Below, in pieces: positions 9,356-23,309 of a stretch of 27,873 nucleotides of DNA. Source of the stretch: a virus; IMG/VR virus record IMGVR_UViG_3300017964_000057, positions 1 through 27,873 of that record; one strand, written 5' to 3'. The stretch's first letter is position 1; each line of letters begins with the position of its first letter. Under the pieces are notes generated by a model that did not search any database, had not been told where the DNA came from, and saw nothing but the letters and a program-made list of their open reading frames with translations. Position numbers and translations under genes: made by a program.

Positions 9356-9808
9356 ATGAGTAATAAAATCATTTGCAGTGGTGCTATCGTCTGTTCACTA
9401 AAAACTAAGCGATTCCTGCTGCTACAAAGGACACATCAAAAGCAAATAGGCCAATGGGGATTAGTAGGAGGAACTAATGACTCAAATGAGTCTCCATGGG
9501 AAGGTCTAACGCGAGAGATTATAGAAGAAATAGGTTCTTTACCTAACTTTGTTAAAGTTATTCCATTAGAGCTTTTTGTTAGTAATGATGAAAAATTTAA
9601 TTTTCATACATATCTTTGTTTTGTAGATGAAGAGTTTATACCTGTTTTAAATGAAGAACACTCGGGATATTGTTGGGTTGATTTTGGTGTGTGGCCTAAA
9701 CCCTTACATCAGGGGTTGCGAAATACTTTAAATAATGCTACAATAAAAACTAAAGTATTAACCGCAGTCGATGTATTACAATATATCGAGGATCAGAATG
9801 ATAATTAA
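9356..9808 (+). CDS. Nudix hydrolase
   Basis: This 150-residue protein carries a complete Nudix box at residues 39-60: G39 x5 E45 x7 R53-E54-I-I-E57-E58-I-G60. It is preceded by the usual beta strand and W-x-L-V-G-G-T entry (QWGLVGGT). Nudix enzymes hydrolyse nucleoside diphosphates linked to another group, and the paired glutamates bind the divalent metal. The substrate cannot be read from the sequence. Many large marine phages carry one. It follows gp15 after 17 bases and overlaps the next gene by 11 bases. No strong ribosome site is visible. It may be housekeeping for the phage and unrelated to the radical SAM genes that follow. Confidence 0.88.
   Translation: MSNKIICSGAIVCSLKTKRFLLLQRTHQKQIGQWGLVGGTNDSNESPWEGLTREIIEEIGSLPNFVKVIPLELFVSNDEKFNFHTYLCFVDEEFIPVLNEEHSGYCWVDFGVWPKPLHQGLRNTLNNATIKTKVLTAVDVLQYIEDQNDN
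9788..9791 (+). promoter_or_regulatory. Ribosome binding site that fixes the start of the 2OG oxygenase gene
   Basis: GAGG lies six bases before the ATG at 9798. The longer open frame from the ATG at 9771 has no comparable site and would overlap the Nudix gene more deeply, so 9798 is the preferred start. Confidence 0.6.
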
Positions 9809-10328
9809 AGATTTATGGCCTACAAAATTAATACAGTTCAAATGGGATAATCAAGAACTATTAGGTAATGTTGTTAACGACATTATTCTAAAATTTCCCG
9901 ATGGTATTAGTGATAGTGAACGTCCCGATATAGAAGAATATCCTGAAATTAAACCAGCATATGATTATGTTAATGACTGCGTTGAAAAATTTTTAGAGGT
10001 TGAATTTCCTAAACAAGGAACTTATTCTTTTAGCTGGTGGGTACATGTTTATAGACAAGGTGCTACACATCATATACATAATCACTTAGGCAGTCAGTTT
10101 ACTGGTATACTTTATCTTGCAACACCTCCTGTAGGCGGAGAACTAGTATTACACGATCCAAGAGGTAATGCTAACAGAGGTTATAATAATAATTTAAAAC
10201 ATATGTTTGATCCTATTATATTAAAACCCGAAGCAGGTGATTTGTTTATATTTCCTAGTTTTGTTTGGCACAATGTTGAAACTGTAAAAGACATGCGTAT
10301 ATGCATGCCATTCGATGTGTGGTGTTAA
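9798..10328 (+). CDS. 2-oxoglutarate/Fe(II)-dependent oxygenase (2OG-FeII_Oxy_5-like)
   Basis: The protein is 176 residues from the chosen start. The motif order matches the phage-borne 2OG-Fe(II) oxygenase family: a His cluster H91-H92-x-H94-N-H96, then GILYLATPPVGGELVLHDPR at 103-122, then PEAGDLFIFPSFVWHNV with the distal metal His158, and Arg167 in DMRICMPF as the probable 2-oxoglutarate ligand. Such enzymes couple 2OG decarboxylation to hydroxylation of a substrate, usually a protein side chain or small molecule. The substrate is unknown. It sits between the Nudix and cupin genes, overlapping the Nudix stop by 11 bases and ending one base before the preferred cupin start. A role together with the radical SAM enzymes is possible but inferred only from position. 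Confidence 0.8.
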   Translation: MIIKDLWPTKLIQFKWDNQELLGNVVNDIILKFPDGISDSERPDIEEYPEIKPAYDYVNDCVEKFLEVEFPKQGTYSFSWWVHVYRQGATHHIHNHLGSQFTGILYLATPPVGGELVLHDPRGNANRGYNNNLKHMFDPIILKPEAGDLFIFPSFVWHNVETVKDMRICMPFDVWC

Positions 10329-10329
10329 T

Positions 10330-10791
10330 ATGCTACTACCTAGTGTTAGTCTATCGTACGATGAATTTGTATCTTTAATTAGAAGCGAGCATGCTTTTAA
10401 TGAAGACATGGTTAGTTATATTGATCGAAAAGGCTTGCAACACTATTTAAAATTTGACGATTATATTTCATATCTAGGTAAAATAGATAACTTATTGTTA
10501 GACAAGGATATAACAATTAAAGTAGAAAAATATGAAACTATGTGTAACTTTAATAAAGGCACTGTTCATATATTTTATGCTAAAGAAGGAAGTCCTAGTT
10601 TTGACGAGCATTGTGATCCTGTAGACTTAATGTTGCAAGTAACACATGGTGTAAAAACAATAGAAATGAATCAAAGAGATTATACGTTGCATAAGGGAGA
10701 ACGTTTATACATTCCTGCAAGTACATTACATCGTGCAACAAACAAATATGAAAGCATTATGCTATCTTGGGGTATAAATGACTGTACATAA
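10330..10791 (+). CDS. Cupin / JmjC-like Fe(II) oxygenase-type protein
   Basis: The protein has 153 residues from the ATG at 10330; an in-frame ATG at 10315, overlapping the previous gene, is possible. Residues 91-136 follow the JmjC/cupin_4 pattern H-x-D-x-x-D...Q-x-x-G-x-K...L..GE.LYIP...H: H94-C-D96-P-V-D in the first half and His134 (PASTLHRAT) as the third metal ligand, with GVKTIEM between. It has the metal-binding core but is shorter than most JmjC hydroxylases, so it may be a minimal cupin. The function could be protein hydroxylation, but no substrate is evident. It overlaps the first radical SAM gene by 14 bases, which suggests coupled translation. Confidence 0.65.
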   Translation: MLLPSVSLSYDEFVSLIRSEHAFNEDMVSYIDRKGLQHYLKFDDYISYLGKIDNLLLDKDITIKVEKYETMCNFNKGTVHIFYAKEGSPSFDEHCDPVDLMLQVTHGVKTIEMNQRDYTLHKGERLYIPASTLHRATNKYESIMLSWGINDCT

Positions 10792-11803
10792 TGCTACACA
10801 ATATATGTCCTATATTAAAACAACCGAGACTTGTAATTTAAACTGTTCTCATTGTTTTACTAACGGTACAAGTGGACGTAAGATTTATTTTAACCCTGTT
10901 GCTACAGCAGACTTTTTTAATAGGCTGTATGCCAAAATGCCCAACAGTGGAATAGCGTTTGAGTTTCACGGTGGTGAGCCTATGCTTGCACCTGTAGAAG
11001 ATATGAAACTGTTTCACAAACTGACTTACGATGTTTGGGGTGACAGAGCATACTATGGCATGACTACTAACCTAACTTATAAACTAACAGACGATAAACT
11101 TGATTTAATATACGGAATATTGCACAAGCGTTTGGGTACAAGTTACGATCCGTTTATACGTTGGGCAAATGAAAAACAACAAAAATTATGGGAAGATAAT
11201 GTACGTCAACTAACAGCAGACGGTGTTGAAATCAAATGCTTTGTAAGTCTAAGCAAGGACATGATACAAGAAAACCCAGCAGATGTTATTGAATATCTTA
11301 TTAGTTTAGGAATACAAGAAGTTGACTTTGAACGTTTAACTTCAGACGGTAATGCAGTACGCAATCCTAAAATATTTCCTACAAATATAGAAATACAAGA
11401 TTGGTATATGCTGCTTCATAAAGAAACACAAGCAAGAGGTTTGCGTGATAAAATATACAATCAAACACTTGAAAGTGTGTATATGAAGTTTGAAGAAGGC
11501 ATTACTCGTGCAAGTACATTTTGTAGAGACTGTGAGCAAAAACTGTTTACTGTAAATGCAGATGGAACTATTGCAGGATGTCCGAACTCAGCACCTACAG
11601 CACACTATGCACACATAAGTGATGACATTGACACTGTGTTATATCATCCAGAACGTATGTGTAACATTGCTAATGAATTAAATAGAAATCCCAAGTGCTA
11701 TGAATGCCCTGTGCAGTTTTATTGTGGTGGCGACTGTTATAAACTTGCGTGGGAAGGCAATGTATGTCCTGCACCTAAAAAACTTATGTTGGAGTTGGCA
11801 TAA
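10778..11803 (+). CDS. Radical SAM/SPASM protein A
   Basis: This 341-residue protein has the radical SAM cluster motif C19-x3-C23-x2-C26 (CNLNCSHC) and a SAM-contact motif HGGEPML at 64-70. It carries a full SPASM-type C-terminal cysteine set: C252 and G-x4-C268 (GTIAGC), then C307-x2-C310-x5-C316-x3-C320 and C330. SPASM domains hold extra 4Fe-4S clusters and are typical of enzymes that modify peptides or proteins, such as anaerobic sulfatase-maturing enzymes and sactipeptide or quinohemoprotein maturases. The substrate is not known. The ATG at 10778 follows a GGGG run; an ATG at 10805 is an alternative. It is the first of three rSAM genes in the rightward unit and shares a one-base overlap (TAATG) with the next. 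Confidence 0.88.
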   Translation: MTVHNATQYMSYIKTTETCNLNCSHCFTNGTSGRKIYFNPVATADFFNRLYAKMPNSGIAFEFHGGEPMLAPVEDMKLFHKLTYDVWGDRAYYGMTTNLTYKLTDDKLDLIYGILHKRLGTSYDPFIRWANEKQQKLWEDNVRQLTADGVEIKCFVSLSKDMIQENPADVIEYLISLGIQEVDFERLTSDGNAVRNPKIFPTNIEIQDWYMLLHKETQARGLRDKIYNQTLESVYMKFEEGITRASTFCRDCEQKLFTVNADGTIAGCPNSAPTAHYAHISDDIDTVLYHPERMCNIANELNRNPKCYECPVQFYCGGDCYKLAWEGNVCPAPKKLMLELA

Positions 11804-12837
11804 TGGATTTAATTATTAAACCAACAGAAGCGTGTAACTTTAAATGTACATTCTGCTCGTCAACTAAGATTGACCCTAACAATGCAGGACTACTTGATCA
11901 CGATTACATTTTTAGATTTTTAAAACGCTATCCTGATACAAACACTATTATTGTAAATGGTGGCGATCCACTAATGGTCGAGCCAGACTATTACTGGAAG
12001 ATTATCAAGTTTTTAGATGAACATAATATGCCTGCAACTATTAGTTTTACTAGTAACTTGTGGCCATTCTATGTTAAGCCGGACAAGTGGGTTGAACTGT
12101 TTAATCATCCACGCATGGGTATTGCTACTAGCTTCCAATACGGTAGTGGCAGACTTAAAGGCGATATGAGTGTGTTCACTGAAGAAGATTTTTGGAAAGT
12201 ATCAGACAAGATGTTAGAGCTTGTAGGATACCGTCCTGAGTTTATTGCTGTTATTGATGATATGAATGATTGGAGTATTATTAAAACAGTTGAACTTGCT
12301 AAACAAATGGACGTAGTATGCAAAGTAAACTATGCTATGGCCAGTGGCGAACAAGGTTACACTTATCGCCTAAGCAAAATATATAAAGCGTATTTAGACA
12401 TACACGAAGCAGGTCTTACTCCTTGGGAATATAACACACAACAAATGATACGCAGACTGCAAACTGACACAACTACGTGTCCGCAGAACAGACACTGTGA
12501 CGAAGGTATTAGAGCATTTAATCCAGGTGGTGACTATTACAGTTGTGGCAGCTTAGGTGATGACAAAGATTATCCTATTGACTTTGAATATGAAATGTCA
12601 GGCGGATTTAGCACACCATTGCAAGATGCACCTGAACTTATATCAATGAAGCAGGCTTGTTTGACTTGTCCTATGTTCCGTATATGTAACGGCTGTCGTA
12701 AAACCGTGCGAGATCATAAACGTGAAGGTGTTGTAGAAGATCATTGTTTTCAAATGAAACAACTTGCACCTAAGATACTAGAACTTAATGGTCAAGATCC
12801 TAACGAAGTTACACCTTATGTGAGAGAATATGACTGA
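11803..12837 (+). CDS. Radical SAM/SPASM protein B
   Basis: This 344-residue protein has C11-x3-C15-x2-C18 (CNFKCTFC) and the SAM motif NGGDPLM at 52-58, where Asp replaces the usual Glu of GGE. The C-terminal half carries a SPASM-like set: C226, C232, G243-x4-C248, then C286-x2-C289-x5-C295-x2-C298 and C315. It is therefore probably a multi-cluster enzyme of the peptide-modifying type. The start overlaps the stop of protein A by one base, with GGAG upstream, and its end overlaps the next rSAM gene by eight bases. It is clearly different in sequence from protein A, so these are not recent duplicates. The substrate is unknown. Confidence 0.87.
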   Translation: MDLIIKPTEACNFKCTFCSSTKIDPNNAGLLDHDYIFRFLKRYPDTNTIIVNGGDPLMVEPDYYWKIIKFLDEHNMPATISFTSNLWPFYVKPDKWVELFNHPRMGIATSFQYGSGRLKGDMSVFTEEDFWKVSDKMLELVGYRPEFIAVIDDMNDWSIIKTVELAKQMDVVCKVNYAMASGEQGYTYRLSKIYKAYLDIHEAGLTPWEYNTQQMIRRLQTDTTTCPQNRHCDEGIRAFNPGGDYYSCGSLGDDKDYPIDFEYEMSGGFSTPLQDAPELISMKQACLTCPMFRICNGCRKTVRDHKREGVVEDHCFQMKQLAPKILELNGQDPNEVTPYVREYD

Positions 12838-13747
12838 GTTTACTGTTAGCATAAACCCTACATACTTTTGTAACTTTCGTTGCGACTTTTGTTATCTTAC
12901 ACCAGAGCAACTAGCAAACAAACATCGTATTAGCCCACAAGAACTTGATCAAAGATTAAGCGAAATAACTGTGCCTATTACACACGTTGACTTATATGGC
13001 GGTGAAATAGGATTACTTGACAAAGATTACTTTTACAGCATTAAAAGTGTAATAAAAAAACACTTTGCTGGTACTATAAATATTAATACTAACTTTAGTG
13101 CAAGACCGGATTTCTTTTTAGACGACGATGTGCATGTTAGTGTGAGCTATGATTTTGAAGCACGTGAGCTAAGTGACACTGTGTTAAGAAACATATTATT
13201 GTTTCCTAAAGATGTAAGTGTACTTGTTTTAGCAAGCCCAAAAGTATTAGCAACAGACGTAGACTTTATGATTAACACATTTAATATGGTTCAGAATATT
13301 AAGTGTGTTGAGATAAAACCTTACAGCACTAACCAAGCAAATGCACACCCTGTTACACACAAAGACTTTGAAGAACACGTTAAAAAATGGATAGAGTCAC
13401 CAATACAAAAGCAATTTGATTTTGTAAATGTTGACGAGTTAGAAGATGTATTAGATGGAAAACGTAATGCATTTTCAAACGATCATGTTTATATTACTCC
13501 AGATGCTAAGTTTGGTGTGCTAGAGTTTGATGACAATGATAATGAATATTTTGAAAAATATAATAAATTTGAAGATTATCTATTTTGGGCCGATCAAGAG
13601 CCAACAAAAAATTTAAGTCCTATATGTCATAGTTGCGAATACTATGGAAAATGTTTAACAGAACATTATAGATTTGTACATGACTTAGATAATGGATGCA
13701 ATGGTTACAAAGGATTAATAGACTGGTATGCTAGACTGGAAGATTAG
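12830..13747 (+). CDS. Radical SAM protein C with a shortened C-terminal cluster region
   Basis: This 305-residue protein has C14-x3-C18-x2-C21 (CNFRCDFCYL) and a GGE motif in LYGGEIGLL near residue 56. The C-terminus has only four clustered cysteines, C266-x2-C269-x5-C275 and C290. That matches one cluster of a SPASM or twitch domain and is the same layout seen in the five minus-strand paralogues. It is shorter than proteins A and B. It overlaps protein B at its start and the next small gene by 20 bases at its end. Family membership is clear from the motifs. Substrate and product cannot be read from the sequence. Confidence 0.83.
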   Translation: MTEFTVSINPTYFCNFRCDFCYLTPEQLANKHRISPQELDQRLSEITVPITHVDLYGGEIGLLDKDYFYSIKSVIKKHFAGTININTNFSARPDFFLDDDVHVSVSYDFEARELSDTVLRNILLFPKDVSVLVLASPKVLATDVDFMINTFNMVQNIKCVEIKPYSTNQANAHPVTHKDFEEHVKKWIESPIQKQFDFVNVDELEDVLDGKRNAFSNDHVYITPDAKFGVLEFDDNDNEYFEKYNKFEDYLFWADQEPTKNLSPICHSCEYYGKCLTEHYRFVHDLDNGCNGYKGLIDWYARLED

Positions 13748-14147
13748 ACAACAACTTTTTAATTCTACTGCGGAAGAATTTACAGACGACTTAAATTTAG
13801 TTAATATTCGCACAGAAGAAGATAGTGTTACTTGGGCAGTAAAACACTTTAACGAACGTGTAGACGAATGGGTATATCCTGCTAAAAGTTATTTTGTAGC
13901 AATATGTTATGCTTATTGGATTAGTTTAGATTTTCGTTACGACTTTATTGAACTGCTAGACGACAAAGACTTGTTAGCAGGCAACGATCCATACTTTAAA
14001 ACTTATAGTGAAGATAAAGCAACTTACAATGCTATACTTGATCAGGTTGAACTACCTGATCCTTCATCTCAGATGGGAATGGTGCCCGACGTTCGATCGT
14101 ATTATGAGGAAGAGATGATGTTTGACGAGTATCCCCTACATAGTTAA
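13728..14147 (+). CDS. Small acidic protein of unknown function
   Basis: I do not recognise this 139-residue protein. It is acidic and rich in aromatic residues, with a central predicted helical stretch (SYFVAICYAYWISLDFRY) that is moderately hydrophobic but interrupted by charges, so it need not be a membrane segment. It has one cysteine and no catalytic motif I can name. It starts within the end of radical SAM gene C and is the last gene of the rightward unit. Its last 116 bases overlap the end of the opposite-strand radical SAM gene D. Its place suggests an accessory or partner protein for the rSAM enzymes, but that is inference. Confidence 0.6.
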   Translation: MLDWKIRQQLFNSTAEEFTDDLNLVNIRTEEDSVTWAVKHFNERVDEWVYPAKSYFVAICYAYWISLDFRYDFIELLDDKDLLAGNDPYFKTYSEDKATYNAILDQVELPDPSSQMGMVPDVRSYYEEEMMFDEYPLHS

Positions 14148-15243
14148 AAAATTCACGTATAGGACATACGCCCGGCGGTAAGTCTCTTGCACGGTTCTTC
14201 CAGTCCCATTGTGTATAACAACGAAAACCACAACGATCAAAATAAGGACAACTTAAACAACCTACTTCATCCATGTATGCTTGCATAAGGTTGGTGTTGT
14301 CTTTTCTAATATATGCATGATTAAAGTCATTGCGTGTATAACGATGCCAACGACAGTTTGCAGTTGTGTTGTCAGGGAATATTGTGAGCTTGTTTAAACT
14401 CATACAGTGCATTTGATTTTTATCTTGTGTTAATAATTCTCTATAAGGAAATACCATAGGATAGTTATCTGCAATATATTTCATAAACTTCAAATACAAA
14501 CTATCACTTGGTACTAGATGATCGTAACCTGGATCAGGAATAAAATCATCAAAGAACAAATCAAAATTTTTGTACAAGTAATCAAAATACTCATCGCCAG
14601 CAAACAGTGCGTTAATACTGTCTGTTGTTGCTACTAGGTTAATAGTAGACACATAGTCTTTGAAACGTTCGATATTTTTAGTGTATTGTCCGCCTGTAGG
14701 ACGACCGCTTAGATCATAACTAGCAATCAGTTTACTTGGGATGTCTACTGCATTTAATTTGTCTAACAGTGTACGTACATCTTCGTGATATTTGAATAAA
14801 AAGTTGCTGACCCAAACTACTTGTATTACATGTCCGTACTTGTCACAGATTTTTTTAATCTCAAGCATTAGATCATAATACATAGGATACAGTGTTTCTC
14901 TTGCACGGTCTTGAAACAGCTCTCCGCCTACCATATTAAACTGCATAGCATGTACTTTGCCTTGCATCTTTTTACAGTGTGCTTCTACTAGAGGAAGTTT
15001 AGCAAGCATTTCAGGATATGTCATGCCCACTGTACTGTCTTTGTCATGAAAGCAAAAGTCGCACACAATAGGACAGTTTTCAAATAGAGTGATTTCTATT
15101 TCGCCAATAAGAGGACGCTTACGCTCTAGTATCATATGCGTAACTGCATTTGCTGCTTGTTGTTCCGGAGTGTCTAATAAATGATCGTCGGTAACATTTT
15201 CAGGCATTAATGCTTTTAATATTTCTGTGCCACAACCGCCCAT
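14032..15243 (-). CDS. Radical SAM/SPASM protein D
   Basis: This 403-residue protein carries C57-x3-C61-x2-C64 (CPIVCDFC), a GGE motif at about 106-108 (MVGGELF), and a full SPASM-type set: C280, C297, C329-x2-C332-x5-C338-x3-C342 and C360. This resembles the peptide/protein-modifying SPASM enzymes more than its upstream neighbours do. An N-terminal extension of ~45 residues precedes the rSAM core. The last ~38 residues follow the final cysteine and are encoded in the part overlapping the opposite gene, so the tail is probably not part of the catalytic fold. The start shares a TAATG overlap with the preceding gene. A T4-consensus late promoter lies 41 bases upstream. It is the last gene of the leftward unit. 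Confidence 0.87.
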   Translation of the reverse strand: MGGCGTEILKALMPENVTDDHLLDTPEQQAANAVTHMILERKRPLIGEIEITLFENCPIVCDFCFHDKDSTVGMTYPEMLAKLPLVEAHCKKMQGKVHAMQFNMVGGELFQDRARETLYPMYYDLMLEIKKICDKYGHVIQVVWVSNFLFKYHEDVRTLLDKLNAVDIPSKLIASYDLSGRPTGGQYTKNIERFKDYVSTINLVATTDSINALFAGDEYFDYLYKNFDLFFDDFIPDPGYDHLVPSDSLYLKFMKYIADNYPMVFPYRELLTQDKNQMHCMSLNKLTIFPDNTTANCRWHRYTRNDFNHAYIRKDNTNLMQAYMDEVGCLSCPYFDRCGFRCYTQWDWKNRARDLPPGVCPIREFFNYVGDTRQTSSLPHNTIERRAPFPSEMKDQVVQPDQV

Positions 15244-16367
15244 TATCTATAACCTATATTATTGTAAAGTGCCATTACGTTTTTATTTATAAGGCACTCG
15301 TTTTGTTGTATTACATCTGACATGAGTGTTTGTATTAGCCTTGAGTTACAATTTTCAACATACTCACAGTTGTTGCACACAAGGTTAGGTATATTTTTAT
15401 ACTGTTGTATTTGCAAGTTGTGCTTTTTATTCATTATACTTGTTAGCACACTGCCTTCTATTGGTATCTCAAAGCTCTCATGATATATTGGAGAGTTTTC
15501 ATATAAGAAAGGAACAACATATAACTTGTCGTTATTAACAGTAACAATAACTTCGTTAAAGTTTTTATGACTATTATCACTTTGTTGCCAAATAAAGTTT
15601 TCTTTAAAACGTTTTTCGTCTTTGTCTACAACACTTTGTATACTGTTATTCCAGCCTTGTATTATGCCTAACATTTTGTCAGGCTTGTTTACCATTGCAC
15701 GTACTAGACTAGGTCCCCATTCTACAACAGTACCCCATTTTTTACGCACACTTTCTATTTTATCCAATACATCATCGTCAACTTTTTGTGTAATATTACA
15801 AAGCAGACTTACTTCATACTCAACACTACTTGCTTCCATCATTGCAAGGCGTTTTTCAATAAGACTGTGTACGTTTGAGTTATCCAACATATGCAAGTCA
15901 ACTGCTATTTGTACATCAAAAGGACGCTCACAAAGATAACTGTTTTCAACATGTTTAATTACTTGTTCAACACGTTCGTCTCCGATGAAAAAATCAACTG
16001 AACAGTTGTGTTGCAAGCCTCCTTCTTCAGGTAAAGCATCAACTATTTTACGAAAACGAGGATCTTCTAATACAGGTATAATATTGCCGCTTGAAAAGAA
16101 ATCGGTAGGTCCTACAATAATATCATCAAGCACATATTGTTCGGTTAGTTCATCAACTAATTGTGCTGCTAGGTCAAGTCCTAACCCTGTTCCGTAGTTT
16201 TTTCTGCGTTTAACAAAACAACCTGAACAGTTATATGCACACCCTTCAAGTATTTCAAGCATGAGTTGTATTTTTATTTTGTTTTGATCAGCAGGATTTA
16301 CAAAACCTTCATCATGATAATCTGTTTTATTTTTGTTTAAGTAGTCTTGCCAATCTTTACGTAGCAT
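15243..16367 (-). CDS. Radical SAM-like protein E, GPTD paralogue family
   Basis: The protein is 374 residues from the ATG at 16367, chosen because GGAGAG lies five bases upstream; an 11-residue longer frame from 16400 overlaps the previous gene further and lacks a site. It has C43-x3-C47-x2-C50 (CAYNCSGCFVKRR) and VGPTD at 85-89, where radical SAM proteins usually have GGE. It has a PFLYEN motif near residue 285 and a C-terminal four-cysteine set C331-x2-C334-x5-C340-x17-C358. These landmarks are shared with four upstream neighbours, so it belongs to a tandem paralogue array. It is the last and probably one of the more diverged members. It is likely a radical SAM enzyme with one auxiliary cluster; the substrate is unknown. 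Confidence 0.78.
   Translation of the reverse strand: MLRKDWQDYLNKNKTDYHDEGFVNPADQNKIKIQLMLEILEGCAYNCSGCFVKRRKNYGTGLGLDLAAQLVDELTEQYVLDDIIVGPTDFFSSGNIIPVLEDPRFRKIVDALPEEGGLQHNCSVDFFIGDERVEQVIKHVENSYLCERPFDVQIAVDLHMLDNSNVHSLIEKRLAMMEASSVEYEVSLLCNITQKVDDDVLDKIESVRKKWGTVVEWGPSLVRAMVNKPDKMLGIIQGWNNSIQSVVDKDEKRFKENFIWQQSDNSHKNFNEVIVTVNNDKLYVVPFLYENSPIYHESFEIPIEGSVLTSIMNKKHNLQIQQYKNIPNLVCNNCEYVENCNSRLIQTLMSDVIQQNECLINKNVMALYNNIGYR
15284..15291 (-). promoter_or_regulatory. Internal late-type promoter (TATAAATA) ahead of radical SAM gene D
   Basis: The minus strand reads TATAAATA, the exact T4 late-promoter element, 41 bases before the ATG of gene D and inside the 3' end of gene E. It could give gene D its own late transcript. 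Exact matches are expected several times by chance in DNA this AT-rich, so only the position supports it. Confidence 0.35.
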
Positions 16368-17436
16368 TATAGCTCTCCAATACACGTAAAGGATATACAC
16401 AGTCTTTAAATTTATAGTGTTCCATATACTTTAGTACATGTTTACTCATACATATTTCTCTACGACTACAATTTTCACAACTTGTAGTTTCTGATAGGTA
16501 ATCTAGCTGTTCTAAATATAATGTTGTTTTTAAATCAGTCCAACTTTTAATGTCTGTAGGATTTTGCACACGAAACTCATCAGTTTTTATTAGTGCTGCT
16601 TCATAAACAAACGGAGTTGAATAAAACTCTCCTTGACTGAATGTATAGTTAAGTTCAAACGGACCACCTTGGTCTTTGTCTGCAATAGTCATTGCAAGAT
16701 ATTCTTTATTTGTATCGTTAAAAGTATTTTCAATAGTCTTAACCCAGTCATTAATTAAACGTTCGTGTATTACACCTTTGCTGTAACGTTGATAGCTAGG
16801 TAGTGTTTCCAATATACTTTCGTATTCATCACGCACTATGCGACTTATTTCTGCTAGATTTTCAATATTGCTATCTATATTAAATGTAATGTAATAATCT
16901 ACAGGATCAGTAAACTTGTTTAGTACTTCATGTATACGTGCAATGTTATTTTTTCTATATGTAGGATCTAAAACTTGTTTAGGATCTATTACAACTTGGA
17001 AACCATATAGAAAATCATCACGCTTTGGTATACTGTTGAACTTCTCTATAACTTGGTCAATGTATTTGTCGTCTGCTTGCAGTGTACTTGGCATTTCAAT
17101 AGTAGTACAACGACTTACTAGCGTTCTAAAGTTTTCGTAATCTAGTAAATCTAATATATTCAAGTTACCAAACACATCTGTAGGACCAATGTTTACACTT
17201 GTAAAGCGTATATTGTTAGACATAAACAGTTCTTGTGCATCAAGTACCTTTTGAATGTCTTCGTTTGTAACTTGTTGACGTCTACGATTAACAAAGCACC
17301 CTGCACAGTTATGTATACAACCATCAAGAACGTCTAGAGTCATGTTTACTTTTATTTCGTGAGCATTTGCCACACCAATATTGTAATCTTCGTGTCCTCT
17401 AGTTGTTTCCCAATAGTTATTTTTTACGATTGGCAT
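16357..17436 (-). CDS. Radical SAM-like protein F, GPTD paralogue family
   Basis: This 359-residue protein has C40-x3-C44-x2-C47 (CIHNCAGCFVNRR), IGPTD at 83-87, a TPFVYEA motif, and the C-terminal set C320-x2-C323-x5-C329-x16-C346. It opens MPIVKNNYWE, very like gene G (MPVIKNNLYYE), and both have LDVLDGCIH before the cluster, so F and G are probably the closest pair in the array. It overlaps gene G by 20 bases at its start and gene E by 11 bases at its end. The conserved iron-sulfur motifs argue for an active radical SAM enzyme. The lack of a normal GGE motif means the SAM-binding mode may differ. Confidence 0.8.
   Translation of the reverse strand: MPIVKNNYWETTRGHEDYNIGVANAHEIKVNMTLDVLDGCIHNCAGCFVNRRRQQVTNEDIQKVLDAQELFMSNNIRFTSVNIGPTDVFGNLNILDLLDYENFRTLVSRCTTIEMPSTLQADDKYIDQVIEKFNSIPKRDDFLYGFQVVIDPKQVLDPTYRKNNIARIHEVLNKFTDPVDYYITFNIDSNIENLAEISRIVRDEYESILETLPSYQRYSKGVIHERLINDWVKTIENTFNDTNKEYLAMTIADKDQGGPFELNYTFSQGEFYSTPFVYEAALIKTDEFRVQNPTDIKSWTDLKTTLYLEQLDYLSETTSCENCSRREICMSKHVLKYMEHYKFKDCVYPLRVLESYNAT
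16373..16378 (-). promoter_or_regulatory. Ribosome binding site that fixes the start of radical SAM gene E
   Basis: The minus strand reads GGAGAG, five bases before the ATG at 16367. It overlaps the last codons of gene F and supports the shorter start over the in-frame ATG at 16400. Confidence 0.65.
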
Positions 17437-18598
17437 GGTATACTTTCTTTATTTCTTCTAGTCGTTCATCGCCGTCTTCAGTTACTAAGAACTTTTTGCG
17501 ATAACCTTGCTTGTCTGCTTCAACTGAATAGTCTGTCCAGTCATACATTTCTGCTGCACTTTTATTATAGTTATAAATGTTCTTCATCATATTTTCTTTA
17601 GGTGCAATACAAGTGTCTACACCTAAGTAATCACGTAGTAATATTACTTTTCTGTTATAACAACTAAAGAACAAGTCGCAATTTTCACACTCTGTACCTT
17701 TTGCACGTTCCATTTGTGTTAGTGTCTTGTAATATGCTTCGTCTAAGTCCTTAACTTCAAACTGTTCATCATACAATGCCATGTTTTCATACATAAATGG
17801 ACTCAAATACCACTTGCCCTTCTTAAAGTTAAGTACTGTGTAGTTGTGTCCAGCATGAGAATGGTCAACCATGATGTTGTTTAGATGAGTGTCTTCAGGT
17901 AGTGCTTCAAAAAATGCATTAAACTGGTTAAGTGTACGCAATATTATGTTAGGTTTATGGCTACGACTAACACTTGGTATAAAGTCAATGGTAGTATCAA
18001 ACTCTTTAACTACAAAATCATGTATTTGTTCATAGTCTAAGTCATATTGTCTAATGTTTACAATGAATGTGTATGTACATTCGTGTTTTAGGTTAGCATC
18101 AATGTACGCAATACAACGTTTGAGCTGTTGTATGTACAATATGTCCTTGTAACGCATTGGATCTGTTGCAATACCTACCTCTATTTCAGTATCAGTGTTA
18201 ACATTGGCGTGTAAGAAGTTAATCCAACGCTCTAAGTAGCTCATGTCTTGCTCTAAAAAGGTTGTAGTGAACGCAAGTATAGGAGAGTTTTCATTTATCA
18301 TAGACAACAAGTCGGGATCTTGCATTACTTGGTAAAAGTTTTCGCTAGACAGGCAGTCTGTTGGGCCTATTAGTACTTCATCTACTAAAATTCCCTTGTC
18401 AGTTATGCGTTTTACAAACTCACGGCACTGTTTTAAGTGATTTTCTTCAGGAGCATTGCCTCTACGGTGTACAAAACAGCCCGGACAAGCGTGTATACAC
18501 CCGTCTAACACATCTAATTGTATTTTTACGGCACTAACTGGTTTAGTTTGTGTTTCTGTTGTTAGCTCGTAGTACAAGTTGTTCTTAATGACTGGCAT
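17417..18598 (-). CDS. Radical SAM-like protein G, GPTD paralogue family
   Basis: This 393-residue protein has C34-x3-C38-x2-C41 (CIHACPGCFVHRR), IGPTD at 77-81, an SPFMYEN motif, and C304-x2-C307-x5-C313-x16-C330. Unlike its neighbours it carries a ~63-residue charged C-terminal extension after the last cysteine, ending in a lysine-rich HANRKK. The start has GGAG eight bases upstream and overlaps gene H by 14 bases. The sequence similarity to gene F extends through the N-terminal strand and cluster loop. It is presumably a sister enzyme with a distinct substrate position or partner; the extension could be a docking tail. Confidence 0.8.
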   Translation of the reverse strand: MPVIKNNLYYELTTETQTKPVSAVKIQLDVLDGCIHACPGCFVHRRGNAPEENHLKQCREFVKRITDKGILVDEVLIGPTDCLSSENFYQVMQDPDLLSMINENSPILAFTTTFLEQDMSYLERWINFLHANVNTDTEIEVGIATDPMRYKDILYIQQLKRCIAYIDANLKHECTYTFIVNIRQYDLDYEQIHDFVVKEFDTTIDFIPSVSRSHKPNIILRTLNQFNAFFEALPEDTHLNNIMVDHSHAGHNYTVLNFKKGKWYLSPFMYENMALYDEQFEVKDLDEAYYKTLTQMERAKGTECENCDLFFSCYNRKVILLRDYLGVDTCIAPKENMMKNIYNYNKSAAEMYDWTDYSVEADKQGYRKKFLVTEDGDERLEEIKKVYHANRKK

Positions 18599-19613
18599 TT
18601 AGGTACTCCTTGGGCAATACACACTCTGTTAAACCTCTATCTTGCATGTAAAACAGTACATTACGCTCTGCACAGCTCATTAAATGAGGACAACTTGCAC
18701 ATTCTTGAGTATTTTCAGCATATGCAAGGTTGCGAGACAAGAAATCATCACTGTTTATGTTTTGTACTTCAAAGTTTGGTGTACGTTGCAGTATAGCATC
18801 GTACAAAAACGGATTCATATACAGTTTACCATTGTAAAAACTGTAGTTAGAGCATCCATAGCCATTAAACTGTGCATCAAACATAGTATACAGGCTTTTG
18901 TACTTGGGGTCAATCTTTTGTTTGCTTAGTTCTTGTATAAACATTGGCAAATATTTACTTACTTTGCCTCTGCTGTTACGATCGTTAAGGAAACTTGGTA
19001 GTATAACTACAGGAGCATTGAAATCTTTCATGGTCATATCACATAAATGATTGTAATCAACACTATCAAATATGCCTGGATAGTAGTTTACTCTAAACTG
19101 CACACTGCCTTGTTTAAACAGTTCAAGTTTGCGACACATATCTTCAACATCGCCCTGCAAGTAACGTTCAATGTCGAGCACTATCTTAAAGTCTATGTCA
19201 GGTGTGCGATCTAGTCCTTCGTAAAGGCTCCAAATCTTAGTGTGTTTAGCAAGTATTGTGTTGTAGTCCTGTAGTAGCGTTGAGTTAAAACTTAATGCTG
19301 CAATGTTGTACAAGCGTTTCATACTAGGATGCTCCATCAACTCCCAAAAGTTTTCAGCATCAAATATATCAGTAGGTCCTATTACAACATCGTCAGGTGT
19401 ATATGCACTAGATTCTAGTATATCACAAAGAGTTGTTAAGTGATCAGCACTGGTTAAGTTTTTGCGTGGAATAAAACAGCCAGGACACTGTTGACTACAG
19501 CCGTGTAGTATGTCAGCATGAACTTCAACCCTAAGAAAGTTGTTATCCTTAGGGCTTACACCTTCAACGTAGTTATTAAATCCTGATGGAGTTGCGTTTA
19601 AGTTAACGAGCAT
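18585..19613 (-). CDS. Radical SAM-like protein H, GPTD paralogue family
   Basis: This 342-residue protein has C39-x3-C43-x2-C46 (CSQQCPGCFIPRK), IGPTD at 78-82, a NPFLYDA motif, and C305-x2-C308-x5-C314-x16-C331. It has the same layout as genes E, F, G and I but low overall identity, showing the array is old and diverged. It overlaps gene I by 11 bases at its start and gene G by 14 bases at its end, so translation is probably coupled. It has no extension after the final cysteine beyond a short tail. The substrate is unknown. Confidence 0.8.
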   Translation of the reverse strand: MLVNLNATPSGFNNYVEGVSPKDNNFLRVEVHADILHGCSQQCPGCFIPRKNLTSADHLTTLCDILESSAYTPDDVVIGPTDIFDAENFWELMEHPSMKRLYNIAALSFNSTLLQDYNTILAKHTKIWSLYEGLDRTPDIDFKIVLDIERYLQGDVEDMCRKLELFKQGSVQFRVNYYPGIFDSVDYNHLCDMTMKDFNAPVVILPSFLNDRNSRGKVSKYLPMFIQELSKQKIDPKYKSLYTMFDAQFNGYGCSNYSFYNGKLYMNPFLYDAILQRTPNFEVQNINSDDFLSRNLAYAENTQECASCPHLMSCAERNVLFYMQDRGLTECVLPKEYLNASH

Positions 19614-20784
19614 TGACGATTTTCAAGGCATCGTCATTCCATTGCTCTGTGCTGTCAATAAACGGATTGTACATTTCAAGTACTTCTAGCGGCATCAGGC
19701 ACTCATGCATATTCATAGCGTCTTGTGCTTGGAATATCAGTCTGTTTGCACATGCTACAGCATACTTACAATCAGCACAATCCTTAACAGTGGAAGACTT
19801 TGCCAAGCCTTTTGCTATTAGTTGATCCCTCTTTGCCAATATTTCTTCAAAACTTAAACCTGTTACTTCTAATTCTTTATGTTGTGTAAAGAACGCTTGT
19901 TCGTGTAGCATAACATTTAGGAATACACGAGGTGCATCAAAGCCAGGAATAATAGTTAGCCCTATGAAGTTCATTGAGTTACAGTACAAGTTAGCCATAC
20001 TCATTGTAACATCAGCATAGTTATCTTGATCTACTACTTCTTTTAAGAAGTTGTTCCATGCTACTAGATTCTTACGCTGGTGTAATACACTTGGTGCTCT
20101 AGAGAACGCAGGGTTCATTTCTAGAATAGTTTCGTAATCTTCAAGAATCTTGTATAGCAGTTTGTTGTAGTTTTCTTTAGTTAGATGTTTTTGCATTACA
20201 TTACTTGCTTGTAATGTCCAACTCCAGTCAATGTTTTTAGGAGTTTCATTTGCAAAGAACTCTAGTTTTGCTTTTATGTCTTTGAAATATTCTTCATCAT
20301 TAAGTATACGGTCAATATCACCTACTGGCATAATAAACTCAATGATCATTTCATCTCTGTATTTTGCAGGATCGTCAAGTATTGAAAATACTTCACGTAG
20401 TCTTTCCATGCTTACATCGTCTATTTTGCTAGGTGTAGCAATACGTGCTTTTGTATGTTCACGCATGATATCCTGTATAATAGGATTGTTAAGAATATTG
20501 TCTGTATTATTTGCTGAGAAAAGATCAGTTGGACCAATAACAAACTCACGTAAATTAAGTCCTGTGCGTGTTACGCCGTCTGCAAGTTCTTTTGCAGTAG
20601 TTAACATTGCATCCATTGTAGCAACGTCTTGATTTTTGTTAACAAAACAACCTAAACAACCATGGTTACAACCAGTGAGTCCTTCAAAGTTAATTAGTAC
20701 GTCAAACTTTTGTGCATGACTAGGAGGTAGACTCTCAGGTCCACTGTATCTCATCTGCTTGCAGTATGATTGTTGCATTGTCAT
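19603..20784 (-). CDS. Radical SAM-like protein I, GPTD paralogue family (first of the array)
   Basis: This 393-residue protein has C39-x3-C43-x2-C46 (CNHGCLGCFVNKN), IGPTD at 83-87, and C336-x2-C339-x5-C345-x16-C362, with a ~31-residue tail. The PFxYE motif of the other copies is weaker here. It is the promoter-proximal member of the five-gene array. Its start overlaps the stop of the upstream unknown gene by four bases (ATGA), with GAGGG nine bases before it; a second ATG follows two codons later. The gene directly follows two unknown proteins and the twin Cys/His-tailed proteins, which makes those the natural candidates for partner and substrate. Confidence 0.8.
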   Translation of the reverse strand: MTMQQSYCKQMRYSGPESLPPSHAQKFDVLINFEGLTGCNHGCLGCFVNKNQDVATMDAMLTTAKELADGVTRTGLNLREFVIGPTDLFSANNTDNILNNPIIQDIMREHTKARIATPSKIDDVSMERLREVFSILDDPAKYRDEMIIEFIMPVGDIDRILNDEEYFKDIKAKLEFFANETPKNIDWSWTLQASNVMQKHLTKENYNKLLYKILEDYETILEMNPAFSRAPSVLHQRKNLVAWNNFLKEVVDQDNYADVTMSMANLYCNSMNFIGLTIIPGFDAPRVFLNVMLHEQAFFTQHKELEVTGLSFEEILAKRDQLIAKGLAKSSTVKDCADCKYAVACANRLIFQAQDAMNMHECLMPLEVLEMYNPFIDSTEQWNDDALKIVNAR

Positions 20785-21491
20785 TCTGTTATTCCCTCAT
20801 CAAATAATTCTAGCATATTATTTGCAACACCATGTTTTATTAATGTGTTATATAAGTCAGCACCTTGATACTTACTTTCATTGTTAAAAACTCTAACATT
20901 TAAGTTACTAGTTGGCCACGGACCAAACTTATGTCCTAACAAATACAAAACATCAATAGCATATGTTGCTATATATACAATATTTAGCCCGATTTCTGTA
21001 TCACTATCAGTGTATTCTAACTCTTCTGGCACAAGTTCTTTATACTTGTCGTTATATTTGCTGGCTTGATCAATACAGAACAATGCAACGTGTTGCATTT
21101 TGTCTAACAAATCGTCAAATAATTTTCCATGTTCATTAATATACTCGTCGATCATATCATTTGACCACAGAGTATTCATTGCAGCATCAACATTGTTATA
21201 TTCTTGACCTAATTTTCTTTTTGCAATTAGTGCTATAATTCTAGCTAGTAAAGGTGCTTCAACTAGAAAATTAATTTTAATATATTCATTTAGTAGTTCT
21301 GCATCAACAGTGTCAAACTGTACTTTAAAGTTTGTGTTAGCAATATAGACTAAGATATGTTTTACAGATAATACTTTTTTACTTTCTTCATAATTTACAT
21401 GAAGAGTGTAATCATCACTATCTGCTTTGATCTTATAAATTTCTGCTAGATCTGTTGGTTTTAAAGGTAGTATATAACTTTGTGTTGACAT
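20781..21491 (-). CDS. Protein of unknown function, upstream of the rSAM array
   Basis: I do not recognise this 236-residue protein. It looks mainly helical, with hydrophobic stretches at about 74-92 (PLLARIIALIAKRKL) and 165-190 (IVYIATYAIDVLYLLGHKFG). These could be buried helices or weak membrane segments. There is one cysteine and no metal or nucleotide motif. The start has TAGGAG five bases upstream and lies eight bases past the preceding stop. It overlaps radical SAM gene I by four bases. Its place between the twin tail proteins and the rSAM array suggests a scaffold or partner protein, but nothing in the sequence proves it. Confidence 0.65.
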   Translation of the reverse strand: MSTQSYILPLKPTDLAEIYKIKADSDDYTLHVNYEESKKVLSVKHILVYIANTNFKVQFDTVDAELLNEYIKINFLVEAPLLARIIALIAKRKLGQEYNNVDAAMNTLWSNDMIDEYINEHGKLFDDLLDKMQHVALFCIDQASKYNDKYKELVPEELEYTDSDTEIGLNIVYIATYAIDVLYLLGHKFGPWPTSNLNVRVFNNESKYQGADLYNTLIKHGVANNMLELFDEGITE

Positions 21492-21499
21492 TGTGTCTC

Positions 21500-22552
21500 C
21501 TATACCAGTGGTTTTACTTTAAACAGCAAATACGGTATACGACTCTTACGCTTGTAGAAGAATTCTACTTCACTCCAAGCATTTCTAAGTGCTTCGTTAT
21601 TTGCAAAATTAAATCCGCCCTCTGCTATTTGTACTACAATAGGAATAGTTTTAGCAAATTCTTTGTATACTTCTTCATATTCCCAATCTTCGTGGTTGTT
21701 AATGAGTTCTAAGAGTTCAGCATTATTGCCAACATCGTTCCAAAAATCTCTTAACACATAAAGTGCTTGCATGCGATTTTTATTTTGGAATGTATCTTTA
21801 ACAAATTGTACTTTGTCCCATGATGAATTACCGTTTGCATGGAACCAATCAATAATACCGTTAATAACACTAATATAACCAATTTTATTTTGTAGCATAC
21901 CAATTACTTCATCAATCATTTTTTCACTGTGAACAGTGAATTTTTCACGCAAATGATTTTGTGTTACTAAGTTAATTTCTGCATACGTTTCATTTTCGTT
22001 ATACTTGTCATTAATAAAGAAAAGTATATCATAACCCCAATGTTTACTACTTGGAGTGCCCATGTTATGCCATTCATTTTTAGCGTAAACATCTTCAACA
22101 CAACCGTTAATATCATTTTCTGTAAATGTAGTGTATGTTGCGTATGTAATATCTCTTTGGAACACTAACTTTAAAAAGTCTTTTACTACATCTTTAACAT
22201 CTTTGTTAGTTGCTGTTTGTAGTAGAGATGCAATATACTTTGCATATACACGAATTAAATCTAATGCATCATCAAATAATAAAAACTCTTTGTCATTGTT
22301 TGACAAATATTCCCATGTGTTTATTTGATCAGTTGTAGTGAACGAAAGCATATCCGGATTTGCATTAGGATAATCTGTAAGTAGTGTATTAACATACGAG
22401 TCTCGTACTTGTGAGTGTCCTTCCGGTGCTACTAACACCATTTTTCTTGTTTGATCGCCTGCCCAAGGACTCTCTGCTAAAGCACTTACCATAGAGCTAG
22501 ACTTTCCTAAATATTTCTTATTGTTGATATAATAAAAACTTTCACCTATCAT
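21500..22552 (-). CDS. Protein of unknown function, downstream of the Cys/His-tailed twins
   Basis: This 350-residue protein is not one I recognise. It begins MIGESFYYINNKKYLGKSSS. The GKSSS run is not a P-loop, because the G-x4-G spacing is missing. The middle (residues ~95-300) is helical and charged, with many aromatic residues. It has one cysteine and no catalytic signature I can name. Its ATG overlaps the stop of the 127-residue Cys/His-tailed protein as TAATG, using that gene's purine-rich end as ribosome site, so the two are probably translated together. It may be a structural or adaptor protein belonging with the twins. Confidence 0.65.
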   Translation of the reverse strand: MIGESFYYINNKKYLGKSSSMVSALAESPWAGDQTRKMVLVAPEGHSQVRDSYVNTLLTDYPNANPDMLSFTTTDQINTWEYLSNNDKEFLLFDDALDLIRVYAKYIASLLQTATNKDVKDVVKDFLKLVFQRDITYATYTTFTENDINGCVEDVYAKNEWHNMGTPSSKHWGYDILFFINDKYNENETYAEINLVTQNHLREKFTVHSEKMIDEVIGMLQNKIGYISVINGIIDWFHANGNSSWDKVQFVKDTFQNKNRMQALYVLRDFWNDVGNNAELLELINNHEDWEYEEVYKEFAKTIPIVVQIAEGGFNFANNEALRNAWSEVEFFYKRKSRIPYLLFKVKPLV

Positions 22553-22935
22553 TATCTTCTTCCCCTTGAGCCGTGACAGCTATAATGGCAACTACTATGA
22601 CAGATTCTCCAATCAAAATATGTGTTAGTTAGTCTGCCTTCTATTTGGTTAACTGTGCGTGAAATACAGTTAGTTGCAAAATTTTGTACCTCACTTGCAT
22701 ATACTTTTAGATTATCTCCAATGTTATTTGGAAGATCTGCTGTACTATATGTTCCTTGTCCTGCGTTTACATACTCATAACGTCTGTTACCGTAAGCAGT
22801 TCCAGAACCCCAACCACTTACGTTTGCATAATAGCACGTAGCATTGAAGTTAATAGTCTTGTCAAAAGATCTAAGACGTAGATACGCATTGTTATAGTAT
22901 CTTGTTTCTAAAGAAGCGTGTGACTCGCCTGCCAT
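22552..22935 (-). CDS. Small Cys/His-tailed protein 1 (candidate rSAM substrate or metal-binding tip)
   Basis: This 127-residue protein ends in CHSSCHYSCHGSRGRR (residues 112-127): three CHxS units then RGRR. It is a paralogue of the next upstream gene. Shared blocks are SFDKTIN at 23-29, GTAYGNRRYEYVNA at 45-58, and a tail block beginning at IEGRLTN. The body is rich in Gly, Tyr and Asn, as in a small fibre or decoration protein. The repeated Cys-His-x-Ser tail recalls RiPP core peptides and the His-Xaa-Ser (HxsA) type of rSAM-associated protein, and the operon carries six radical SAM genes downstream. Alternatively it could bind metal like a fibre tip. No signal peptide or double-glycine leader site is evident. 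It is a real gene: overlapping starts and a conserved twin support it. Confidence 0.75.
   Translation of the reverse strand: MAGESHASLETRYYNNAYLRLRSFDKTINFNATCYYANVSGWGSGTAYGNRRYEYVNAGQGTYSTADLPNNIGDNLKVYASEVQNFATNCISRTVNQIEGRLTNTYFDWRICHSSCHYSCHGSRGRR
22555..22602 (-). other. CHxS x3 - RGRR tail of protein 1
   Basis: Codes for three consecutive Cys-His-x-Ser units followed by Arg-Gly-Arg-Arg and the stop. The purine-rich end (AGG GGA AGA AGA) also serves as the ribosome site for the next gene, whose ATG overlaps the stop. Confidence 0.7.
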
Positions 22936-23309
22936 TACCTTCTCCCTCTACTGCCGTGACAACTATAATGGCAACTTGTATGACAAATACGAAAATCAAA
23001 ATACTGATTAGTTATTCGACTTTCGATTAAATCACAAGTTCTTGTTATAGCATTTAGTGCCTGGTCTATCATATGTCCTGCATCTACTAGTGTAGTATTG
23101 GGATACACGTTTCCGTTGTAATCACTGTTAGGAGCATTTACATACTCATAACGTCTGTTACCATATGCAGTACCTGCGTTGTAACCGCCATAGTTTTGAT
23201 TAGTATAAACTGTGGCTGCTACGTTTACAGTTTTATCAAACCCTCGCAATTGAGCACCAGCATTGCCGGTAAAATAATCTCTTGCGGATGTTCGATTCAT
23301 GTTTCCCAT
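22935..23309 (-). CDS. Small Cys/His-tailed protein 2 (candidate rSAM substrate or metal-binding tip)
   Basis: This 124-residue protein ends in CHTSCHYSCHGSRGRR (residues 109-124), differing from its twin by one residue in 16. The N-terminal 60 residues share FDKTVN and GTAYGNRRYEYVNA with it, but the middle (60-95) is diverged, so selection has held the tail and the YGNRRYEY block. The start may be 23309 or the in-frame ATG at 23300. It lies three bases after the large fibre gene and overlaps its twin by one base (TAATG). Its place directly behind a tail fibre gene suggests a virion part. The Cys/His tail next to an rSAM array suggests modification. Both may be true. Confidence 0.75.
   Translation of the reverse strand: MGNMNRTSARDYFTGNAGAQLRGFDKTVNVAATVYTNQNYGGYNAGTAYGNRRYEYVNAPNSDYNGNVYPNTTLVDAGHMIDQALNAITRTCDLIESRITNQYFDFRICHTSCHYSCHGSRGRR
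22938..22985 (-). other. CHxS x3 - RGRR tail of protein 2
   Basis: Same tail as the twin gene, with Thr in place of Ser at the variable position of the first unit. The codons AGA GGG AGA AGG just before TAATG are a strong ribosome site for the twin. Confidence 0.7.

Follow-up and report, generated by a model that had tools for sequence, protein, structure and literature searches.

Which task do nine radical S-adenosylmethionine (radical SAM) enzymes perform in the structural region of a phage? The question is raised by the IMG/VR virus record IMGVR_UViG_3300017964_000057, analysed here over its whole length of 27,873 nt (27.9 kb, the window), which comes from a myovirus structural region. Nine radical SAM open reading frames (ORFs) lie between fibre-like proteins found at both window ends, and two small proteins in the same stretch end in a shared tail of C-H-x-S repeats. 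The reading proposed here, to which we give a probability of about 0.7, is that this set of enzymes acts on a virion adhesion or entry protein and matures its C-terminal tip, as in ribosomally synthesized and post-translationally modified peptides (RiPPs) but on a structural protein.

Radical SAM enzymes and a candidate substrate

All nine ORFs, three on the plus strand and six on the minus strand, carry CX3CX2C among their first 65 residues and, at the C-terminus, a four-cysteine CX2CX5C..C group; the initial annotation, made from the letters of the window, had noted both sets of cysteines. Both cysteine motifs together occurred in 0 of 45,000 composition-preserving shuffles. The enzymes and the tail genes are as follows.

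10778..11803, plus strand: R1, first-family radical SAM/SPASM enzyme, orthogroup up1; above the TIGR04085 cut-off; usually directly 5′ of the tail gene
11803..12837, plus strand: R2, first-family radical SAM enzyme, orthogroup dn2; the most conserved of the nine
12830..13747, plus strand: R3, first-family radical SAM enzyme, orthogroup dn3 (phrog_1802, tree)
14032..15243, minus strand: R4, first-family radical SAM enzyme, orthogroup dn1 (phrog_1802, tree, Cys motifs)
15243..16400, minus strand: R5, predicted second-family radical SAM enzyme (family membership, Cys motifs)
16357..17436, minus strand: R6, predicted second-family radical SAM enzyme (family membership, Cys motifs)
17417..18598, minus strand: R7, predicted second-family radical SAM enzyme (family membership, Cys motifs)
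18585..19613, minus strand: R8, predicted second-family radical SAM enzyme (AlphaFold2 model, CteB match, Cys motifs)
19603..20784, minus strand: R9, predicted second-family radical SAM enzyme, GPTD type (family membership, Cys motifs)
22552..22935, minus strand: tail protein 2, 127 aa, tandem paralogue of protein 1, ending CHSSCHYSCHGSRGRR
22552..22602, minus strand: 16-residue CHxS tail and stop codon of protein 2, residues kept, synonymous sites free
22935..23309, minus strand: tail protein 1, 124 aa, candidate substrate; helix-hairpin-helix body of no known family and C-terminal CHTSCHYSCHGSRGRR
22935..22985, minus strand: 16-residue CHxS tail and stop codon of protein 1, residues kept, synonymous sites free

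By sequence comparison, R1-R4 (10778-15243) are clear radical SAM/SPASM enzymes. They matched phrog_1802 'radical SAM' at 1e-26 to 1e-56, and their family profile matched solved radical SAM/SPASM enzymes, namely the anaerobic sulfatase-maturating enzyme (anSME, 3e-18), ChlB, YydG and MoaA. With the SPASM model TIGR04085, R1 scored 29.3 against a cut-off of 27, and R2 and R4 scored below it. R5-R9 (15243-20784) gave near-noise scores against Pfam and NCBIfam and together form one family, in which GPTD replaces the usual GGE motif. The profile of this second family matched the profile of R1-R4 at 94.5% and returned only noise against PDB sequences. The AlphaFold2 model of R8 (pLDDT 88) had CteB, a thioether-forming radical SAM enzyme, as its top PDB match in Foldseek (probability 1.00, TM about 0.53); anSME and viperin were further high-ranking structures. 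R5-R9 form a second family, not described before, for which a radical SAM fold is predicted. The partial TIM-barrel fold expected for all nine was recovered by profile for R1-R4, by structure prediction for R8 and through family membership for R5-R7 and R9.

The initial annotation had placed these enzymes in peptide and protein modification, a view that is supported here, and it had overlooked the genes at 22552-23309, which now supply a candidate substrate. Both proteins end CHxSCHYSCHGSRGRR directly before the stop codon (C-termini RICHSSCHYSCHGSRGRR and RICHTSCHYSCHGSRGRR), that is, in three C-H-x-S repeats closed by R-G-R-R. When one of the two was compared with phages by tblastn, matches were confined to its C-terminal part and came from three Burkholderia jumbo phages, where they sit exactly at homologous radical SAM clusters. 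Translated clusters of SURPRISE13, Pseudomonas DT01, Agrobacterium Atu_ph07 and Sinorhizobium Phosso encode proteins that share this tail but otherwise differ.

Viral contigs were then searched with a degenerate DNA pattern for CHxSCHxSCHxxRxRR that carried no stop requirement. At least 119 contigs matched, of which at least 117 are real (L032 and L045 were discarded as chance repeats). Among the matches listed, a stop followed the tail directly in 147 of 147 translated cases (119 loci, including the window and the cultured phages), and 131 distinct DNA tails encoded 51 peptides with both Cys and both His codons near-evenly used. Constancy of Cys and His is in itself no evidence, as both were specified in the pattern; Ser and Arg were invariant among the matches listed, although the pattern would also have accepted Thr, Cys or Arg in place of Ser, and Ser in place of Arg.

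The bodies that bear the tail fall into many families. Between A4, the type found in the window, and A5, the most frequent type, profile similarity was 99% with the tail and 9% without it, so that the two share no detectable homology apart from the tail. A profile search of the bodies against PDB sequences returned noise, and a relationship to T4 gp30.8 was rejected (weak Pfam match of 0.0044, in 2 of 40 relatives only). One tail protein (L124:7817-8512) has several extra CHSSCH-type repeat blocks ahead of its final CHSSCHDSCHSARGRR. A single 151-kb phage contig (L063 and L077, IMGVR_UViG_3300025138_000014) holds A4-type and A5-type tail systems at two sites.

Tail and enzymes are strictly linked and conserved

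Across phages the genes recur in the order cupin, radical SAM up1, tail, X236, radical SAM dn1, dn2 and dn3, and X139 (X236 and X139 are conserved proteins listed below). Into this order 2-oxoglutarate-Fe(II) (2OG-Fe(II)) oxygenases and 0-6 second-family radical SAM genes are inserted, giving 4-10 radical SAM genes per cluster. In a tree of the first-family enzymes the orthogroups correspond to gene positions, and the window holds one of each: R1 is up1, R4 is dn1, R2 is dn2 and R3 is dn3. Cluster genes were present at 114 of the 117 IMG/VR tail loci among the matches listed, even in short stretches.

An independent ASCERTAINMENT was obtained by searching viral contigs with R2 alone, the tail not being used as a query. 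It returned 80 loci. In 36 of them the tail was present, either in the retrieved segment or in the full record; the 44 others are on contigs that break off within the cluster, towards the end at which the tail is expected. The tail pattern read in reverse, used as control, gave 0 matches in 50 records. No complete cluster without a tail gene was seen among the 80. All six cultured phages with R2, which are jumbo phages, have the tail, and R2 itself is about 60% identical to its counterparts in Burkholderia, Agrobacterium and Sinorhizobium jumbo phages.

The cluster thus recurs in many phages; it is not confined to them and occurs in Bdellovibrionota chromosomes too. A bacterial scan with the tail pattern, using one genome per species, gave 19 matches. 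A tail at the C-terminus was encoded by twelve, mainly in contigs of metagenome-assembled genomes (MAGs) with the same operon, and seven (L130, L131, L132, L135, L139, L143 and L144) were set aside, having no C-terminal tail ORF. Three bacterial contigs that were inspected are from chromosomes and carry housekeeping genes around the cluster. A clear X236 match was found in 17 of 369 Bdellovibrionota genomes, once on a single 4.15-Mb contig (L251). Jointly, the bacterial clusters contain members of all four radical SAM orthogroups, the cupin and an X139-like protein. The tail variants include CHTNVPTPPPCHASRGRR, CHGNFPPPCHGSRGRR, CHSNHCSHSNHGSRGRR and CHSACHDNCHSSRGRR, among others; all those read start with C-H and end with H-x-[SA]-R-G-R-R, and the number of Cys varies.

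Most Bdellovibrionota prey on Gram-negative cells, a lifestyle that the MAGs found here may share. Most of the bacterial clusters adjoin a prepilin (PF07963 N-terminus) fused to Peptidase_S74, a phage-fibre chaperone domain, together with a conserved 195-aa protein. Compared with the phage fibre end, this 195-aa partner gave E 0.016 at a probability of 3%, which is suggestive only. Prepilin-like proteins, some with C-terminal Peptidase_S74, were noted near the highly conserved 195-aa protein and the radical SAM cluster in L251-L255, L257, L258, L261, L264, L227, L230 and L231. The 9.5-kb contig L263, which carries a phage-type fibre and H-S-S repeats like those of HxsA, may be of viral origin.

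Virion context, proposed maturation and rival explanations

The initial annotation had suggested a role of the enzymes in the particle or in infection. This is supported by the linkage to the tail, by a fibre-like neighbour and by the position of the tail gene in Atu_ph07. In at least 72 loci the neighbour of the cluster belongs to one fibre-like family with a Peptidase_G2-like end, and mostly lies directly 5′ of the cupin or tail gene. By mass spectrometry (MS), Attai et al. (PMC6102473) identified 131 virion proteins of Atu_ph07, most of them encoded in three gene clusters of which one is 'CDS 170-215'. The Atu_ph07 tail protein is gp170 (121118-122008), the first gene of that cluster; X236 (gp169) and two radical SAM enzymes (gp165 and gp168) fall outside it. 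The numbering of the paper and that of RefSeq agree at gp132, gp140, gp181, gp198, gp204 and gp215. The start of the virion cluster at gp170 suggests detection of this protein in virions. From this one proteomics-defined cluster and the gene context, the tail protein would appear to be located in the particle. Independently, radical SAM cassettes were placed in the host-recognition cluster of pelagimyophages by Zaragoza-Solas et al. (PMC7029224).

The cluster of the window is best read as one modification system, split over two strands yet complete. We strongly infer that the tail is the substrate of the radical SAM enzymes, and a candidate precursor gene lies beside modifying enzymes, as expected of a RiPP. 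In the proposed mechanism, the small proteins encoded at 22552-23309 would be made with their CHxS/RGRR tail, and R1-R4 and the five GPTD-type enzymes, aided by the cupin, X236, X139 and X350, would rewrite its side chains. The chemistry would most likely be radical cross-linking or oxidation centred on the Cys, His and Ser of the tail. Since CteB, the nearest solved relative of R8, makes such bonds, thioether or other side-chain cross-links are, by analogy, the leading guess; since Cys number varies in bacteria, the modification seems to centre on His and Ser and not on Cys alone. As the tail alone is constant while its bodies vary from phage to phage, enzyme recognition would have to lie in the tail or close to it, with RGRR as the probable handle, being part of what all tails share. 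Once finished, the protein would become part of the virion close to the fibres, and there its modified, basic tip would help the particle to bind or breach the host envelope. A role in envelope contact or entry is suggested because phages and predators share the tip beside fibres or pilus-like proteins. It is a tentative extension, somewhat less likely than an even chance, that there is a previously undescribed class of radical SAM-matured 'attack tips', with a new CH-x-S/RGRR cross-link, by which phage particles and predator pilus-like fibres contact or enter Gram-negative cells.

Several points weigh against this maturation. The tail modification is a prediction drawn from genes. The model of the tail body is modest (pLDDT 71) and has no significant fold match in BFVD or PDB. 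The presence of gp170 in virions is deduced from its position at the boundary of the cluster. Bacterial tails with one or two Cys mean that three Cys-centred cross-links are not universal. No RiPP recognition element, leader, peptidase or exporter was identified in the cluster, and no peptidase or transporter among the conserved neighbours. The number of second-family enzymes (0-6) has no obvious matching change in the tail, so some radical SAM enzymes may act elsewhere, for instance on the body or the fibre.

The tail could instead be an unmodified metal-binding tip, holding Zn or Fe by Cys and His like HxH fibre or spike tips, with the enzymes acting on the fibre, tRNA or a metabolite. Phage tips with metal-binding His are known, the tail is rich in such ligands, and a modified residue has so far not been observed. 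We nevertheless regard this as unlikely, in view of the strict linkage and fixed order of tail, X236 and radical SAM genes in phages and bacteria and of closest enzyme relatives that are peptide or protein maturases. The RiPP-like architecture and the tandem small precursor-like proteins would also suit a released product (toxin, bacteriocin or signal) whose core is the tail, cleaved from its carrier and no part of the particle. This is quite improbable, however, as no peptidase or exporter was recognised in the conserved neighbourhood, the carriers (about 110-300 aa) differ among phages and lie amid virion genes, and gp170 opens the MS-defined virion cluster of Atu_ph07.

Radical SAM genes of marine and jumbo phages have been reported before, with 12 in a T4-like marine genome that Nishimura et al. 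2017 (PMC5332604) assigned to Fe-S metabolism, in pelagimyophage cassettes (PMC7029224), and in FLC6 (gp70-82), SURPRISE13 and phiRP31. The openly accessible main texts, subscription articles and preprints aside, gave no substrate and read the genes as auxiliary metabolic or listed them singly. A function in host Fe-S or cofactor metabolism is nonetheless very unlikely here: no NCBIfam metabolic equivalog reached its cut-off, the genes share one structural-region operon with the tail gene, and they recur beside prepilins in predators. That the window is an assembly chimera carrying a bacterial chromosomal cluster, the objection foreseen in the initial annotation, is scarcely credible even though genuine bacterial versions exist, given near-identical clusters in independent viral contigs (L151, L169 and L211, some of 118-160 kb) and whole homologous clusters in complete genomes of cultured phages.

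Maturation of a probable virion protein would probably be a new variant of radical SAM peptide maturation. It resembles the RiPPs matured by radical SAM/SPASM enzymes (CteB/SCIFF, PapB ranthipeptides, darobactin DarE and dynobactin DynA) in its encoded peptide stretch beside dedicated SPASM-type enzymes; R1 is nearest to DarE, sulfatase maturase and PapB models and the R8 model to CteB. It differs in that no equivalog cut-off is approached, the phage cluster has 4-10 radical SAM enzymes, and an invariant C-terminal tail is phage-borne on unrelated structural bodies, with no leader removal or exporter seen. Like His-Xaa-Ser (Hxs) peptides, the phage tail is made of H-x-S repeats, but here Cys stands between the repeats and RGRR closes the series. 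Phage tails did not match HxsA models, the L263 tail (..WCHSSHSSHSSHSSRGRR) matched HxsA2 weakly (6.4e-5, 23.9 bits, cut-off 48), and for HxsB/HxsC R1 scored 33 bits against a cut-off of 370 and R2 23.3 against 267.9. The four-residue Cys period of CHxS recalls CXXX-repeat peptides (TIGR04115), whereas some bacterial tails lose that period and R1 scored 23.9 bits against a cut-off of 350. anSME, the best solved-structure relative of R1-R4, likewise modifies a protein residue; it is, however, one enzyme converting one Cys or Ser to formylglycine, whereas the phage system is a multi-enzyme battery with a repeated tail.

To our knowledge no radical SAM tailoring of virus particles has been described, the activity being known from small secreted peptides and enzymes. 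That a widespread phage system would devote 5-10 kb to the modification of a 16-residue tail implies strong selection on that tip. The proposed maturation would assign a function to many of the 'radical SAM auxiliary genes' found in marine and jumbo phages, and would imply new peptide chemistry and an attachment or entry device common to phages and predatory bacteria.

Other genes of the cluster and the window

The further genes of the cluster and its surroundings are listed below.

6538-7908: virion structural protein
7908-9338: gp15-like tail sheath stabiliser (PF16724, 1.6e-24)
9356-9808: NUDIX hydrolase, directly 5′ of the 2OG oxygenase and cupin genes
9771..10328, plus strand: 2OG-Fe(II) oxygenase, frequent cluster accessory (PF13759, 5.6e-18; at least 38 loci)
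10315..10791, plus strand: cupin/JmjC-like protein, regular first cluster gene (PF08007, 5.7e-7; at least 68 loci)
13728..14147, plus strand: X139, small conserved protein after R3 (phrog_20737, 2.7e-35)
20781..21491, minus strand: X236, conserved partner near the tail gene (at least 101 loci)
21500..22552, minus strand: X350, conserved, between tail genes and X236 in window-type clusters (at least 22 loci)
23313..27873, minus strand: fibre-like virion protein with a Peptidase_G2-like end, of the family that adjoins the cluster in at least 72 loci; runs past the window edge

The initial annotation had placed the enzymes next to gp14- and gp15-like genes; the gp15-like assignment held, and the gp14-like one was borne out only as a virion structural protein. 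X236 had no match in Pfam, or in PDB by profile search against PDB sequences. Because it has no conserved Cys or His, it is probably a peptide-binding or scaffold protein. X350 is collinear with an analogous 371-aa gene in other clusters; the comparison was not significant and the two were not taken as counterparts. An optional cluster protein of 520-590 aa, with CX3CX2C in mid-protein, was seen at L080:8004-9668, L057:1704-3266 and 12 further loci, and looks from its sequence like a cobalamin-dependent radical SAM enzyme. The NUDIX hydrolase is elsewhere no regular cluster member. At 251-1789 on the minus strand, adjoining a fibre, lies a 512-aa protein without any family match, the C-terminal half of which resembles a cysteine-protease-type domain.

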